From: an uncultured Flavobacteriaceae bacterium
GTDB taxonomy: Bacteria; Bacteroidota; Bacteroidia; Flavobacteriales; Flavobacteriaceae
Assembly: GCA_947494825.1 (NCBI GenBank)
Contig: CANLWN010000005.1
Span: 62,001 to 126,000, forward strand
Reading direction: 5' to 3'
Length of the DNA stretch: 64,000 nucleotides
Shown: positions 2,072 to 45,937 of the stretch, in pieces
Position numbering within the stretch: the first letter of the stretch is position 1
Layout of the letters: each line of letters starts with the position of its first letter
Translations under genes and position numbers: made by a program
The notes under the pieces: generated by a model
What the model was told of the DNA's origin: nothing
What the model saw: only the letters and a program-made list of their open reading frames with translations
Database searches by the model: none

Positions 2072-2818
2072 CTATTTTTTTGGTTTAGTGTCTTCGTCCT
2101 TTCTTTTCTGTGCCGCAAACCAGTCGTACAATCCATCCGTGTTATACGCCCTTACCCACGAATTATGTCCAACCCCGGGATATCTGGTAAACTGCACCGG
2201 GTGCCCCAATTTTTGCAAGCGGGCCACCATTTCTTCCGATTCGGATATGGGAATGGACCTGTCTTCCTCCCCGTGAAACACCCAAATGGGCATCTCCTTG
2301 TCTATCCATTTGGCGTAGGGAGTGGGTGCCATACCACAAACTACGGCCATAGCGGCAAATTTTTTGGGATAGTGTACGGCCAACTCCCATGCCGCACTCC
2401 CTCCCCTACTTAATCCGGTAAGGTAGATCCTTTTTTTATCCACCCTGTTATGGGCAACAATGGTATCCAATAACTGCATCACCGATCGGGTGTTCCACCA
2501 TTGCTTTTCGTGGGGATGCTGCGGGGCCAGAATTAGAAAAGGGAACTGCTTGCCGTCTGCAATCAATTTGGGCGGACCACTGGATTTGATCCTCGAAAGG
2601 CTATCGCCCGCGTCGCCACCGCCATGAAGAAACAACAAGAGTCCAAACTCCTTGTCCTTATCCGTTTCATAATCCGGAGGAAAATAGAGATAGTACCGCA
2701 GTTTTTCCACATTAACGGTCTCTACTTCATCGGCAATCAATTGGGACTGTGCACCACAGGCCTGAAAAAAAAGCGCGTAAAGGACTAAGGATAAAAAAAT
2801 GGACAAGGGTCGTTTCAC
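2072..2818 (-). CDS. Alpha/beta-hydrolase (esterase/prolyl oligopeptidase-like) lipoprotein
   Basis: The 248-residue protein starts with a signal peptide ending FFQAC (Cys21). It carries an alpha/beta-hydrolase core: an oxyanion region LLFLHGGGDAGD (61-72), a nucleophile elbow GLSRGG with Ser137, an acid in HGEED (Asp186) and a catalytic histidine in VGHNSW (His218). This layout is typical of PHB-depolymerase/feruloyl-esterase-like and dienelactone-hydrolase-like proteins of polysaccharide loci. It is the first gene of a two-gene unit with the GH9 enzyme, 8 bp apart, so removing acyl substituents from plant or algal glucans is a reasonable inference. The exact ester substrate is unknown. Confidence 0.85.
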   Translation of the reverse strand: MKRPLSIFLSLVLYALFFQACGAQSQLIADEVETVNVEKLRYYLYFPPDYETDKDKEFGLLLFLHGGGDAGDSLSRIKSSGPPKLIADGKQFPFLILAPQHPHEKQWWNTRSVMQLLDTIVAHNRVDKKRIYLTGLSRGGSAAWELAVHYPKKFAAMAVVCGMAPTPYAKWIDKEMPIWVFHGEEDRSIPISESEEMVARLQKLGHPVQFTRYPGVGHNSWVRAYNTDGLYDWFAAQKRKDEDTKPKK

Positions 2819-2930
2819 AAGCTAGGATATGACTTACTCCTTAAAAGTATAAAAATTACCACAGACCTTACCATTTATGGGGGAATACGTGGCATGAAAA
2901 AAAATCCGATAAAAAAGAGCTACGGCCCGG

Positions 2931-3641
2931 TCAGTTATTTTCGTAAATGGGGTAGCTGTCCATATACCTTGTAATGGTTTCTGGGTTCATGTAACGTTGG
3001 TCAATGGCCGGGCCCTCTTCTGCCAACAGGTCTTCCGATGCACCCCGCCATTCACTAATGTTCAAAACCTCACGTACATAACTGCTCCAAGCGTAAAGTT
3101 GGTACCCCAATCCATGTTCAATACTGATGCGATCGGTATTAAATTCAAAGGCATCCGTGTTTTTCGATTTCAACAATTTAAAGGGCAGGCCTATCAATTG
3201 CAAAGTGTTCTTACTACTGTAGTAGCGTGTATGCCCCAATTCATGTCCTAGCACCCCGATCTGTGCATTATAGGGTAGTTTGGAAAATAAAATAGGCGTA
3301 AGCGCTTCGCTGGAACGGGTGCTGATCGTAATAATGTAGGTTCGGTTTTTCCTTTTCTTGAATACGCTCCAAACCTGTGGTCTGGAGGCGAGGGGGGTCT
3401 TACGTTTGCGCAAGCGAAAGATTATTTTTGTCTCCCGCAATTCGGGATAATGCGACAGGGCAATCAGCGCCTGCGGGCGGATTTCGCCGGGTATTTTTTT
3501 ATTCGTTTCAAAGGCCGCGTATTTTAAGGAATCAAAGGTATCCTTTTGGAAGTGTTTTACCGGCATCTGAGCGGTCAGATGGACGCATATGCATAGGAAA
3601 ATCCCAAAAATACAATATGTTCCAGCCTTGCGCCTTTGCAT
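2931..3641 (-). CDS. Secreted HExxH putative metallopeptidase, unnamed family
   Basis: The 236-residue protein has a signal peptide (hydrophobic stretch about 8-24, cleavage after LTAQ) and one clear catalytic-type motif, LGHELGHTRYYS, giving His133, Glu134 and His137 as a gluzincin-like zinc site. A downstream acidic residue could supply the third ligand (FEFNTDRISIEHGLGYQ) but I cannot assign it. The rest does not match a family I recognise. The stop of the beta-barrel gene upstream lies about 11 bp before its start, so the two are probably co-expressed. Periplasmic or outer-membrane protein turnover is only an inference. Confidence 0.6.
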   Translation of the reverse strand: MQRRKAGTYCIFGIFLCICVHLTAQMPVKHFQKDTFDSLKYAAFETNKKIPGEIRPQALIALSHYPELRETKIIFRLRKRKTPLASRPQVWSVFKKRKNRTYIITISTRSSEALTPILFSKLPYNAQIGVLGHELGHTRYYSSKNTLQLIGLPFKLLKSKNTDAFEFNTDRISIEHGLGYQLYAWSSYVREVLNISEWRGASEDLLAEEGPAIDQRYMNPETITRYMDSYPIYENN

Positions 3642-3652
3642 ACAAAACGGGC

Positions 3653-4222
3653 TTAAAGGGAAAAATAATACTGTAATGAAATACTGGCGATAAAATCCTG
3701 GGCCACGTCATCACCGTTGGTGACCACGTTTATTTCCCGTCCAAAGCCCGCGGTAATACCGATTCGTGAGGAGGCATTGAGGTCCAAAAAGTAACCGGCT
3801 TCCAACCAGGGTTGTAAAACCAGTATGTAGGTGGTCCCTGAACTTGGATTGGGCATATTGACGCCGTCGCGCCAATCGATCCATAAATTCCAGATATCTG
3901 TGTTAAACCCAGCGATTATCTTTCCCTTCCCTACTGGAAAATGTTTGCGATACCCGAAAGAACCGCCAAAGCCTGCCCCTTCCTCCTCGTCATTTTCATC
4001 GCTAAAATCCTGACGGTCCGTGATGTTGGCCCCCAGGCGAAATAAAAGGGAAGATTCCTCAGAAAGATAGTGTTCCGCATTTATGGTAGGGATTATTCCC
4101 GCAGGATAAGCCTGAACGGACAGGCCCAAATCCGTTCTTTTGCCCGGATCCGATTGTGCATAAAAGGGCAGTGTGCATAAAAAACAGAGGACAAAAAACC
4201 AAGTGGTGGGTAGATGGCGCAT
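3653..4222 (-). CDS. Small outer-membrane beta-barrel protein, unknown function
   Basis: The 189-residue protein has a clean signal peptide ending FYAQ (about 22). The mature part has alternating hydrophobic/polar strands and closes with an aromatic-terminated strand (ISLQYYFSL), the usual outer-membrane barrel signature. Mature length fits an 8-stranded barrel. No catalytic motif is visible. Its stop abuts the start of the ATP-grasp gene upstream (1 bp between them), so it probably belongs to the same transcript as the genes from LysE to ATP-grasp. Confidence 0.65.
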   Translation of the reverse strand: MRHLPTTWFFVLCFLCTLPFYAQSDPGKRTDLGLSVQAYPAGIIPTINAEHYLSEESSLLFRLGANITDRQDFSDENDEEEGAGFGGSFGYRKHFPVGKGKIIAGFNTDIWNLWIDWRDGVNMPNPSSGTTYILVLQPWLEAGYFLDLNASSRIGITAGFGREINVVTNGDDVAQDFIASISLQYYFSL

Positions 4223-4223
4223 A

Positions 4224-5267
4224 TCAAATCAATTTTAGATGTTCTTCCAATTCCTTATTTGCCCGCATCATGGCCCTGCCGTCCCTGTAACTAAGGTATC
4301 GGTGCCCCTTTCTATTGTTTATGGCACTGATCTCGTACATGAGCCTCCAATGCCTGGTAATTTCGCGCCAAGCAAAGAACAGGGAATGCTTGGGGTCATA
4401 AATATGTGTGGGCTCGCTACCCGCTCCGTTCACCTCTATTACACTAAAGTCCTTCCCTGCCGCCAAAGCGTCAAAGGAGGAATACAGAATGTCTAGGCGA
4501 CCAAAATAGAAATCGGGTATTTGCTTGCAAATGGTATCTATGGTATCCAAAAGCTGTTGGTTCTTCAAATGCGATTTGTCAATGAATTTGGCCCCCCTGG
4601 TATGGCTGCCATAAGGTACGAGAACAAATTGCTCACCCTTGGCCAAAACCCGATCCAAGGTAGCTCCATATCGTCGCATCAAAATTTTGAGCTGAAAATG
4701 GCTTCTTGGGGTTTGTTTGATTAGATCCTTTATACTGTGTTGCCCATCACCAATGACCGATAAAAACTCCTTGGAAACAATGCCCGTAATGACGCCTTTT
4801 TCAGCATCGGGTTTCCGTACGTAAAAAATACCTACCTCCTTGGGGTAATCCACAAATTCCTGTACCAAAAAATTGTCGGCTATCTTATCCAGATATCCTT
4901 TAAGTTCGCCCTCGTGGTTTATCTTATCCACCGCAAAGGCCTTTAACCCGATATCGGGTTTTGCGATCATGGGAAAATGGATTCCCGCTTGCACCACGGA
5001 TTTCATGGCCTCCTCCAGGGAAGCCCCTTTGTTTATAAGCACGGTTTTTGGAATATACTGGGGCGGGATGATATCATAAATCTCTTTTTTTGACTCCATG
5101 GCCATACCCCCATTTTTAATGGATGGGTTGGCAGCACTAAAAAAGAAAAAAGAGCGGGCCTTTATCGCATAATATAACCAAACGGGAAAAATAGGGTAAT
5201 AAATAGCCTCCATGGGCCAATACTCCCAATGGAATAACTTGTGCAATTTTAGCCTTAAATAGCTCAT
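4224..5267 (-). CDS. ATP-grasp protein (often labelled D-Ala-D-Ala ligase-like)
   Basis: The 347-residue protein has an N-terminal hydrophobic segment (about 15-45) and an ATP-grasp fold from about 60. Visible elements are FPMIAKPDIGLKAFAV (ATP-binding lysine strand), FLVQEFVDYPKEVGIFYVR (adenine-side strand) and a metal-site region DFSVIEVNGAGSEPTHIYDP. It lacks the rest of a true Ddl architecture, so it should not be read as the peptidoglycan ligase; the acceptor substrates are unknown. It overlaps the NRDE gene by 4 bp (stop/start overlap), which indicates translational coupling. Confidence 0.75.
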   Translation of the reverse strand: MSYLRLKLHKLFHWEYWPMEAIYYPIFPVWLYYAIKARSFFFFSAANPSIKNGGMAMESKKEIYDIIPPQYIPKTVLINKGASLEEAMKSVVQAGIHFPMIAKPDIGLKAFAVDKINHEGELKGYLDKIADNFLVQEFVDYPKEVGIFYVRKPDAEKGVITGIVSKEFLSVIGDGQHSIKDLIKQTPRSHFQLKILMRRYGATLDRVLAKGEQFVLVPYGSHTRGAKFIDKSHLKNQQLLDTIDTICKQIPDFYFGRLDILYSSFDALAAGKDFSVIEVNGAGSEPTHIYDPKHSLFFAWREITRHWRLMYEISAINNRKGHRYLSYRDGRAMMRANKELEEHLKLI

Positions 5268-43933: not shown

Positions 43934-45562
43934 ATGAACGATTCTGTATTCCATTTAGTTAGGGCCTATCTTAGAAAGGAAAACATTATCATCAATTTTG
44001 AAGAGCTAAAATTTCAACTTCTCAGTCATCCATCCTACCCAAGTCTCCATTCCATTACTGGTGTTTTAAGTCACTTTAACATTGATCATGGAGCTTTTGA
44101 AGTCCCGAAAGACCAGGAAACACTTCAACACCTCCCTGACAATTTTATTACCCTAACCTCGGACAGCGGACAATTCATATGGGTAACCAGGGATAAAAGG
44201 AAGAATCGGTTCAAAATAAACTACAGTAACAATCAAAGTAGAGTGGTAACAGACCAAGAGTTCCTTGATCAATGGGAATCCGTTGTCCTTGCATTGGACA
44301 CGGAGGGCACGGAACAGCTCCTCAGCAAGGAGACAACTACCAGAATTTTCAAATTGGTGTCCCTTATTTCACTGATATTGATAGTAGGCTCATTTTTTCC
44401 TACTAACGCCGGATTGTCCAAATTGGTTCATTTCATTCTATCTACTATTGGCATTTTGACAAGCATTTTAATATTGAATCATGAGTTTGGGTTTCATTCC
44501 GTTCTGGTTGACAAATTTTGCACCTCAACAAAATTCACAAACTGTCAAAGTATTTTAAATTCGAACGGTGCTATGGTCACAAAATTTCTGAAACTTAGTG
44601 ACCTATGCCTTATCTACTTTGTTGGCCTTAGCATATTAGGCCTCAATACGTCGCTGTTCATTGGAACTTATTCACCCTTGTTTTTAATCTCCTTTTTGGC
44701 ACTACCTGCCGTGGTATATTCTATTTACCATCAAGGTTTTGTGACAAAAAAATGGTGCCCCTTATGTTTAATTGTTGTATCCGTTCTATTGGCCCAAAGT
44801 GCGGTTTCCATTTTTAATATGGATGTAATCTTAACTGATGGTATTGCTTTAAAAGGCGTGTTGGCTATTTTCCTGGTCTTTATATGTATCACTTCTTTTT
44901 GGATTTCGGCCAAACCTTATCTCTTGGAGTGGTTCGATCTTAAGAAACAAAAGATAGAATATCATAGATTCAGAAGAAACTTTAATCTGTTCAGGGCACT
45001 TCTTCTTAAGGAAAGTCCAACCAACATGGCTCTTGAAAAGAAGGTCGAAAATGAAATTGTACTGGGCAATAGAAAAGCCTTTTTAAATATTGTTGTCGTG
45101 ACGAATCCGTCCTGTTATTATTGCGGATCTGCGCACAGGGAAATAGAAAAGATCTTGGAAAAAAATGCAAAAGAGGTAAGCGTTACCATTAGGTTTTGTT
45201 CTCTAAAAAAGAAGGACGGCTCCTATTTGGTCGCTGAAAGATTACTAGAAATGTATAATACGGAATTCTCCCCCGACCTTCTTAAGGAGTCACTACGTGA
45301 AGCTTACCATACCCATATGGAAATAGGAAAGTGGTTACTAAAATGGGGCAAACCTTCGTCCAAATCATACAGATCAATTTTATTAGAGCAAGAAAAATGG
45401 TGCAGCACCAACGGAATCAATTTTACCCCAGCGATTCTTATAAATGGTAGACTATACCCCAAAGAGTTTAAGAGGACAGATTTGTCCTATTTTATGGAAG
45501 AATGGGCAGAACTTGTTGAAAACAAGAATAAAGACCAGGTCGATCTTCAGTATACGGAGTAA
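43934..45562 (+). CDS. C39-like / VKOR / thioredoxin fusion, disulfide-forming membrane protein
   Basis: Read from the ATG at 43934 the protein has 542 residues; a TTG start 7 codons upstream is possible. N-terminal part (1-125) resembles a peptidase-C39 domain (HPSYPSLHSITGVLSHFNID, then FITLTSDSGQFIWVTRDK) but has no cysteine, so it cannot be an active protease. Residues 140-330 form a VKOR domain with loop Cys196 and Cys204 and the redox pair Cys275-Cys278 (WCPLC). Residues 380-525 are a DsbA/thioredoxin-like domain with Cys394-Cys397 (CYYC) and a cis-proline region FTPAILINGR. It should oxidise thiols outside the cytoplasm via quinone. The next gene encodes a Cys-rich double-glycine peptide. 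Confidence 0.88.
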   Translation: MNDSVFHLVRAYLRKENIIINFEELKFQLLSHPSYPSLHSITGVLSHFNIDHGAFEVPKDQETLQHLPDNFITLTSDSGQFIWVTRDKRKNRFKINYSNNQSRVVTDQEFLDQWESVVLALDTEGTEQLLSKETTTRIFKLVSLISLILIVGSFFPTNAGLSKLVHFILSTIGILTSILILNHEFGFHSVLVDKFCTSTKFTNCQSILNSNGAMVTKFLKLSDLCLIYFVGLSILGLNTSLFIGTYSPLFLISFLALPAVVYSIYHQGFVTKKWCPLCLIVVSVLLAQSAVSIFNMDVILTDGIALKGVLAIFLVFICITSFWISAKPYLLEWFDLKKQKIEYHRFRRNFNLFRALLLKESPTNMALEKKVENEIVLGNRKAFLNIVVVTNPSCYYCGSAHREIEKILEKNAKEVSVTIRFCSLKKKDGSYLVAERLLEMYNTEFSPDLLKESLREAYHTHMEIGKWLLKWGKPSSKSYRSILLEQEKWCSTNGINFTPAILINGRLYPKEFKRTDLSYFMEEWAELVENKNKDQVDLQYTE

Positions 45563-45574
45563 CCACCAATGCCA

Positions 45575-45603
45575 ATACTTTTCCGCATAATGCGGAAAAG
45601 TAT
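45575..45603. promoter_or_regulatory. Perfect 14-bp inverted repeat between VKOR-fusion and peptide genes
   Basis: ATACTTTTCCGCAT and its exact complement ATGCGGAAAAGTAT flank a single A, beginning 12 bp after the VKOR-fusion stop. It could be a terminator/attenuator setting peptide versus enzyme levels, or a protein-binding operator. It lacks a U-run directly after the stem. Confidence 0.7.
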
Positions 45604-45696
45604 AGCAAAGGGAACAATATCTTCTCGCGAAAGATGGACACAAACCTTGAGTGTCCTAAACTGTTCAGGGCTAATATAAATCTTAATTTAATCATT

Positions 45697-45891
45697 ATGA
45701 AAAAATTAGCAAATCTTAAAGGTGTCAAAGCCCTTAGCAAAAAGGAGCAAAAAACCATTTCTGGCGGCCTAGCTAGGGGACAAACCTGTCAAGAGCTTTT
45801 TGTATCGGCAGATTGTTGCGATCCATGCTGGACCAGTCCTTGCGGATTCATAGGTGCGGAATTTTGCTTTAATGGAATTTGTTATATATAA
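45697..45891 (+). CDS. Double-glycine-leader, cysteine-rich peptide precursor (bacteriocin/RiPP-like)
   Basis: A 64-residue precursor that I take to start at the ATG at 45697. It has a Bacteroidota-type leader (MKKLANLKGVKALSKKEQ, then KTISGG) ending in Gly23-Gly24, the cleavage site for C39 peptidase transporters. The 40-residue core holds seven cysteines (31, 40, 41, 44, 49, 57 and 62), including adjacent CC and a CDPCWTSPC stretch. It directly follows the VKOR/thioredoxin gene, so disulfide formation in the core is the simplest reading. No C39 ABC transporter is in the window. The target or role of the peptide is unknown. Confidence 0.85.
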   Translation: MKKLANLKGVKALSKKEQKTISGGLARGQTCQELFVSADCCDPCWTSPCGFIGAEFCFNGICYI

Positions 45892-45909: not shown

Positions 45910-45937
45910 ATGCACGGGGCCCTGCGGCCCTGTGCAT
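45910..45937 (+). terminator. Strong GC-rich hairpin downstream of peptide gene
   Basis: A 12-bp stem (ATGCACGGGGCC pairing with GGCCCTGTGCAT, one G-U pair) with a CTGC loop, 18 bp after the peptide stop. It is followed by ATATTCC rather than a long U-run. Likely transcript end or mRNA-stabilising 3' structure. The rest of the gap to 46128 holds nothing clear. Confidence 0.7.

Follow-up and report, generated by a model that had tools for sequence, protein, structure and literature searches.

The locus lies within a stretch of 64,000 nucleotides (the window) from an uncultured Flavobacteriaceae bacterium, the source genome of which comprises 4.54 Mb in 32 contigs. A gene for a protein that joins a C39-like domain to VKOR and thioredoxin domains is followed on the same strand by a structured RNA element and a short precursor peptide gene (Table 1). 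The sequence-only reading of this region had given coordinates, cysteine positions and a domain order, and all of these were right according to ORF calls and Pfam. VKOR matched over the cut-off at residues 166-292 (E 4.9e-11) and Thioredoxin_4 at residues 371-517 (E 2.7e-10). The Peptidase_C39 match was sub-threshold (E 4e-4; 20.7 vs 22 bits; profile positions 30-129), and Pfam matched no ABC transmembrane or ATPase domain in the protein, where VKOR and thioredoxin come after the C39-like domain. The loop Cys pair and the CxxC in a helix bundle that characterize VKOR (PF07884) are both present, and C196, C204, C275, C278, C394 and C397 are invariant in 45/45 aligned homologues. We take Thr-Pro 498-499 to be the cis-Pro of the thioredoxin domain. 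The alignment of the 45 homologues left out the fragments L109 and L110, the fusions of L068, L079, L100, L105 and L106, whose starts are not settled, and those of L073 and L075, which are near-identical to that of L072. As a domain arrangement, C39-VKOR fusions exist in public domain databases.

Table 1. Features of the locus; positions are counted from the first letter of the window
Feature	Position	Strand	Details	Basis
C39-like/VKOR/thioredoxin fusion gene	43934..45562	+	542 aa from ATG	Pfam and ORF
C39-like domain, protease-dead, putative leader-recognition type	43934..44308	+	residues 1-125	AF2, Foldseek/VIA, profile match, triad absent
Extra transmembrane helix TM0	44333..44389	+	residues 134-152; absent from the canonical VKORs compared	AF2 helix, hydropathy
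VKOR domain	44414..44815	+	residues 161-294; Cys196/204 and Cys275/278	Pfam VKOR; Cys invariant in 45/45 aligned
DsbA-like thioredoxin domain	45044..45484	+	CxxC 394-397; Thr-Pro 498-499	Pfam Thioredoxin_4; Foldseek matches to DsbA-like proteins
Hairpin (inverted repeat) just upstream of the RNA element	45575..45603	+		sequence and fold
Conserved structured RNA	45619..45670	+	model extent 45611-45682	covariation, genome search, no Rfam match
RNA stems	P1 45619-23/45631-35; P2 45636-41/45651-56; pseudoknot P3 45645-50/45665-70	+		
Double-glycine Cys-rich precursor peptide gene	45697..45891	+	64 aa; leader 45697-45768, core 45769-45888	
G+C-rich inverted repeat after the peptide gene, terminator-like	45910..45937	+		read by eye

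The N-terminal domain has a C39-like fold that lacks the catalytic triad, and is protease-dead. An AlphaFold2 model built from 56 homologous N domains (the fusion alignment minus L086, with 12 of the 79 named loci added) reached a pLDDT of 88.6. Its best PDB match in Foldseek was the ComA peptidase domain (E 7.6e-6), followed by HlyB and PCAT1, with LahT slightly lower. In VIA-align, Z was 13.8 against both PCAT1 and leader-bound LahT (rmsd 3.0 and 2.9 over 124 and 122 residues), and 12.2 against the HlyB C39-like domain 3zua. Two other papain-like domains also scored high, the toxin 9l5u (Z 12.4) and CdiA-CT 8ssm (Z 11.5), so the fold by itself does not single out C39. C39 was singled out by the profile-profile match of the N domain to the C39 domain of PCATs, the C39-ABC exporters (probability 96.9%, E 2e-10). 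The earlier call of a C39-like domain without any Cys was therefore borne out: the best structural matches are the C39 domains of ComA, PCAT1, LahT and HlyB, the profiles agree, and residues 1-125 of the window fusion contain zero Cys.

Cys is absent from the N domain in 36/56 rows. In five rows, the window not among them, a Cys adjoins the catalytic position, with a nearby His in only one of the five. The 11 aligned PCATs, a selection from those found, retain Cys15, His88 and Asp104. The N domain has its fold in common with the peptidase domains of PCAT1, ComA and LahT and with the C39-like domain of HlyB, with a degenerate triad as in HlyB; unlike in the PCATs and HlyB, it is found outside any ABC transporter and is joined to VKOR-thioredoxin. 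We also observed fusions starting with MDNC, MIDNC or MNNC (both fusions of L062, and those of L063, L064 and L065), in which a Cys occupies the catalytic position of C39 or lies close to it; four of the five have no His nearby. Such fusions are possible intermediates in the loss of catalysis.

The full-length model of the fusion (pLDDT 88.3) has six TM helices, as read from the model. Canonical VKOR-thioredoxin proteins have five, and owing to the one additional helix both ends of the fusion and its VKOR cysteines would lie on one side of the membrane. A strong TM0 (hydropathy > 1.6) was present in 38/45 aligned and 73/80 named fusions and in 0/9 controls. The controls were nine hand-picked VKORs without C39, with L276 trimmed to its last 190 aa. 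We counted K+R in the 10 aa before TM1, the Cys loop, the TM2-3 loop and the 8 aa before the CxxC. The means, in this order, were 0.47, 4.60, 0.31 and 1.84 for the 45 fusions, 0.47, 4.71, 0.26 and 1.96 for the 80 named fusions, and 2.11, 1.11, 2.78 and 0.11 for the controls. The comparison of loop charges read 'inverted' in 43/45 and 75/80 fusions, the remainder being tied and none canonical, and in 0/9 controls. In a wider control that overlaps with the nine, 14/16 VKOR frames without a recognisable C39-like start were canonical (12/30 loci gave no frame; the frames of L281 and L283 run from stop to stop, and their starts are unclear). The other two, L274 and L287, are short VKOR frames without C39 with Lys/Arg-rich Cys loops; they read 'inverted' and are possibly further cytoplasm-facing VKORs. 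Two C39 fusions within the wider set were both inverted.

The loop charges of the fusions predict the side opposite to that of the usual VKOR topology, in which the active site is periplasmic or lumenal. By the positive-inside rule, the reversed charges and the extra helix lead to a predicted cytoplasmic active site, so that the prediction puts the C39-like domain, the VKOR cysteines and the thioredoxin domain together on the cytoplasmic side. This is also where PCATs have their homologous C39 domains. The sequence-only reading had not decided whether oxidation precedes or follows export; the charge pattern favours the former. The canonical orientation keeps some weight as an alternative. It would place the VKOR cysteines and thioredoxin in the periplasm, where they would oxidise the peptide after cleavage and export by the PCAT, with the C39-like domain periplasmic or a docking relic. 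This arrangement is the family default, the charges fitting a periplasmic active site in all nine controls and in most of the overlapping wider set, and bacterial disulfides usually form in the periplasm. However, none of the fusions has canonical charges; with six TM helices, the 125-aa N domain would have to cross the membrane without a recognisable signal peptide (judged by eye); and by the time this domain met the peptide, the leader would already be lost. We consider the canonical orientation unlikely, but not negligible.

According to the accessible part of PMC6363468, the helix of the leader lies in a hydrophobic groove of the C39 domain that is ~20 A away from the active site, leader positions -4, -7 and -12 sit in this groove in LahT, and degenerate C39-like domains recruit substrate, that of HlyB doing so without proteolysis. 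A similar groove is described for the PCAT1 C39 domain in the accessible part of PMC6959990. As the groove lies away from the active site and degenerate domains recruit substrate, a domain may lose catalysis and still bind the leader. In 271 unique peptides downstream of an RNA element, positions -4 and -12 of the leader are hydrophobic in 97%; these are two of the three LahT groove positions (PMC6363468, same part), and we counted this for leader docking. Position -7, on the other hand, is Gln in 84% of the 271 and hydrophobic in the LahT substrate, which speaks against it. The C39-like domain probably grips the helical part of the double-glycine (GG) leader.

The C39-like domain might instead dock on the PCAT or pair with its peptidase domain; it would then serve to recruit the oxidase to the exporter and not to bind the leader. 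A PCAT is present in the fusion locus in 33/50 family and 55/78 named loci, and the recruitment by HlyB noted above (PMC6363468, same part) makes non-catalytic export roles possible. The contact is hypothetical, however, and would be compatible with leader binding, and as a replacement for leader docking we regard it as rather unlikely. No PCAT was found in 17/50 family and 23/78 named fusion loci, some of which are on contigs that end early.

The fusion was present in 39 of 299 Flavobacteriaceae genomes (the family set; this set and the named loci partly overlap, and their counts are not independent). Taking GG-type as G followed by G, A or S, an ORF of GG-type with >=3 Cys was found <=3 kb from the fusion in 45/50 family and 74/78 named loci. 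In 35/50 and 61/78, respectively, such a Cys-rich ORF is on the strand of the fusion and starts downstream of it by <=400 nt. Either a GG-type ORF or the RNA element was present at 47/50 and 76/78 fusion loci, and neither at three and two. In a stricter control for chance (GG, >=4 Cys), an ORF was present <=1.5 kb of the fusion in 101/130 loci. The density of these strict ORFs was 0.54 per kb <=1.5 kb of fusions vs 0.006 per kb in the parts of those loci far from fusion, PCAT and element, an enrichment of ~90-fold, and the other 63.5 kb of the 64-kb window had 0. The pairing of fusion and GG peptide is not due to chance, and the adjacency first seen at this one locus is general.

The source genome has three copies of the fusion (window, L007 and L008), diverged to 27 and 25% identity. 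Its one active PCAT is on another contig (L006) and does not adjoin a fusion, as expected by the sequence-only reading, which had placed the cleaving transporter elsewhere. A Cys-rich GG-like peptide with five Cys is also encoded at L006; its leader resembles that of the window peptide but ends in GYG instead of GG, and the same RNA element precedes it. A GG peptide with six Cys is located directly downstream of the L007 fusion, and another with six Cys is 1.6 kb from the L008 fusion on the other strand, where two ORFs (2796-4309) come between. The RNA element was not found at L008. The L008 peptide type also occurs near fusions in L061, L066 and L076. It is a distinct GG type with the core ...YCGAYYCANVNPSACCCP (L008:2571-2726 (+), L061:6341-6496, L066:11231-11386, L076:11244-11769), located on the strand opposite to the fusions of one class; the motif is doubled in the L076 member.

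No DsbB match was found in the source genome, and no VKOR there besides the three C39 fusions was over the cut-off. The fusion could accordingly be the general disulfide system of the cell, its place beside GG peptides being secondary. This is improbable, as a gene present in only 39/299 family genomes is accessory, GG/Cys ORFs are strongly enriched beside it, and three diverged copies, each with a nearby GG/Cys peptide, suit dedicated maturases.

In the window peptide, 24 aa of leader with Gly-Gly at the end come before a core of 40 aa, which contains seven Cys (31, 40, 41, 44, 49, 57 and 62). The sequence-only reading had described the next gene as such a precursor, with a 40-residue core and seven Cys. 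It matched PF14406 (Bacteroid_pep) weakly (21.2 vs 25 bits), with the GG leader present. A longer start at 45634 was rejected: its ATG is inside the RNA element, and homologues mostly start near MKKL, MKNL or MLKN. Among the 271 element-preceded peptides, the number of core Cys is even in 218 and odd in 47 (those with two or more Cys), and six have none or one. The named set gave 160 even vs 23 odd, and other residues in these cores are even in 51-68%. The mostly even numbers point to disulfides. The three element-marked peptides of the source genome, those of the window, L007 and L006, have 7, 6 and 5 Cys, respectively, 2/3 being odd, so this parity holds for the peptide class and not for the source genome. 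The only near relative of the window peptide among the 271 is that of L171. The two have in common the stretch CxxLFVSxxCCxPxWxSxC, and L171 has Trp where the window peptide has Cys44, leaving six Cys. The simplest reading, from this one homologue, is that the window peptide may be a six-Cys scaffold with one extra Cys (C44). Less simply, the seventh Cys could be a free thiol or form a dimer, as the sequence-only reading had suggested.

The window and L006 peptides are preceded by stretches that are 85% identical over 136 nt, and 68 nt of the window stretch recur at 87% before the L007 peptide. These stretches contain the RNA element, in which P3 pairs the loop of P2 with a downstream hexamer. 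P3 was paired in 98.2% of cells across 28 elements. In 69-71 elements (28 seeds included) that were aligned without P3 in the model, it was paired in 96.5% of cells, with both-side changes in 6/6 pairs. The whole structure was paired in 94.7% vs <=53% when slid (69-71 elements), and G-U pairs are used. The reading of the element as a duplication relic or a recombination site of peptide cassettes, to which the frequent occurrence of the peptide genes as neighbouring paralogues with similar leaders lends something, is very improbable in view of these both-side changes, of the loss of pairing on sliding and of the G-U pairs. An outer helix P0 (GAACA/TGTTC) closing the RNA can be drawn in the window; it was rejected, being paired in only 64% of cells of the 28 elements.

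In the source genome, the covariance model found three copies at E <= 0.01, before the window, L006 and L007 peptides. In the family genomes it found 124 copies in 41/299 (a search with tighter filters that scored few candidates in each genome; 10 of the 124 matches were without follow-up). Fusion and element were both present in 30 genomes, fusion only in 9, element only in 11 and neither in 249 (p 3e-24, kinship uncorrected). A short ORF starting 15-60 nt after P3 followed 107/116 elements, 105 with a GG-type leader and 96 with strict GG. The named loci gave 229 matches, of which the 30 weakest and one more at a contig end were set aside. In 187 of the remaining 198 the element precedes a GG-type ORF, and 167 of these start 27-32 nt after P3; the element is thus upstream of most of these peptide genes by ~26-32 nt. 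Elements were also found before GG peptides outside the 8-kb surroundings of the fusions in the family set, and in Bacteroidales records, e.g. L205 and L256. At L155:3090-3161 the element is followed by a 175-aa lipoprotein-like ORF with no GG peptide, and at L250:3163-3233 the model matches both strands (57.9 and 38.5 bits).

No Rfam match over the gathering cut-off was found for the window, L006, L007, L008 or seven named loci; the candidates for window positions 45540-45710 were far below the gathering scores. Compared with mononucleotide shuffles, the 45 nt preceding the elements have a better fold (mean z -2.3, with 40% of 297 below -2), and several have a hairpin whose end lies immediately upstream of the element. 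A promoter motif, TAnnTTTG, was discarded, as it had only 14 occurrences in the 297 upstream regions (raw count). The RNA element most likely acts in cis, controlling how much peptide is expressed in relation to the upstream enzyme gene. Under one reading, processing or attenuation between the enzyme and peptide cistrons would leave the substrate in excess. The RNA element, and the cytoplasmic-facing prediction from the extra TM helix and loop charges, go beyond the sequence-only reading.

The fusion profile matched the VKOR-thioredoxin fusions 4nv6 (E 2.6e-4) and 3kp9 (E 0.03) in the PDB; the VKOR part alone had no match to PDB sequences in phmmer. The VKOR four-Cys core and the thioredoxin domain are common to these proteins and ours, whereas the N-terminal C39-like domain and the additional TM helix are found here, and the loop charges are opposite to those of the canonical VKORs compared. 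The topology of Aeropyrum pernix VKOR reportedly promotes disulfides in two compartments (Hibender, 2017); to our knowledge, this protein has no C39 domain and no GG peptide. Our searches, with subscription journals mostly out of scope, found no literature on VKOR with C39 or with bacteriocin peptides of this kind, none on a pseudoknot with flavobacteria or bacteriocins, and, in a targeted search, none on Bacteroidetes double-glycine Cys-rich precursors.

The closest known system is that of the bacteroidetocins, and dedicated disulfide maturation of GG peptides is already known. In the accessible part of PMC6671954, their clusters in Bacteroides and Prevotella have four separate genes, for a GG-leader Cys peptide, a C39-ABC exporter, a thiol oxidoreductase and a five-TM protein; toxin activity drops when the oxidoreductase or the TM gene is deleted, and disulfides were inferred. 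The likeness lies in the GG/Cys peptide, the PCAT (at another locus in the source genome) and the oxidoreductase and TM parts, here fused in one protein. In contrast, the bacteroidetocin TM protein is of unknown identity, the leaders have 15 aa, and neither a C39-like domain on the oxidoreductase nor an RNA element is described in that part of PMC6671954. Likened by description only, the fusion looks like a one-protein counterpart of the bacteroidetocin oxidoreductase and TM genes with a built-in leader reader.

On balance, we lean towards the explanation that the fusion is an enzyme dedicated to forming disulfides in GG peptides under the guidance of their leaders, and that it oxidises them in the cytoplasm before PCAT cleavage and export, with the mRNA pseudoknot as a cis control. 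Fusion and peptide would be transcribed, the RNA control acting before the peptide. The leader would dock on the C39-like domain, a PCAT peptidase fold that has lost its catalytic residues, and the DsbA-like domain would oxidise the core cysteines. The VKOR domain would in turn re-oxidise the DsbA-like domain; VKOR passes electrons to quinone. With oxidation completed in the cytoplasm, the active PCAT encoded elsewhere in the source genome would cut the leader and export the peptide. Several observations go against this explanation. The PCAT1 cargo is unstructured in the published cavity (PMC6959990, accessible part), which makes export of an already oxidised peptide a proposal only. The two 'inverted' VKOR frames without C39 weaken the charge argument, as does the indirect nature of the positive-inside rule. 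The PCAT does not adjoin a fusion in the source genome, some loci are PCAT-less, three family and two named loci have neither a GG-type ORF nor the element, and L008 is without the element.

By analogy, the peptides would be bacteriocin-like. Stated in full, the proposal is of a leader-directed cytoplasmic oxidase, in which a VKOR turned inside-out by one added helix is guided by a dead GG protease domain and acts before export on peptides whose mRNAs are marked by a new pseudoknot family that sets their output relative to the enzyme; this we hold tentatively, at a little under an even chance. If true, the widespread flavobacterial Cys-rich peptides would be defined as a class of natural products that has its dedicated maturase, and the system would be a bacterial example of programmed cytoplasmic disulfide formation. 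Leader docking by a degenerate protease domain would be a simple answer to how an oxidase picks its substrate. The pseudoknot provides a sequence handle for the peptide genes, even outside the locus of enzyme or exporter, and is in its own right a structured RNA awaiting explanation.
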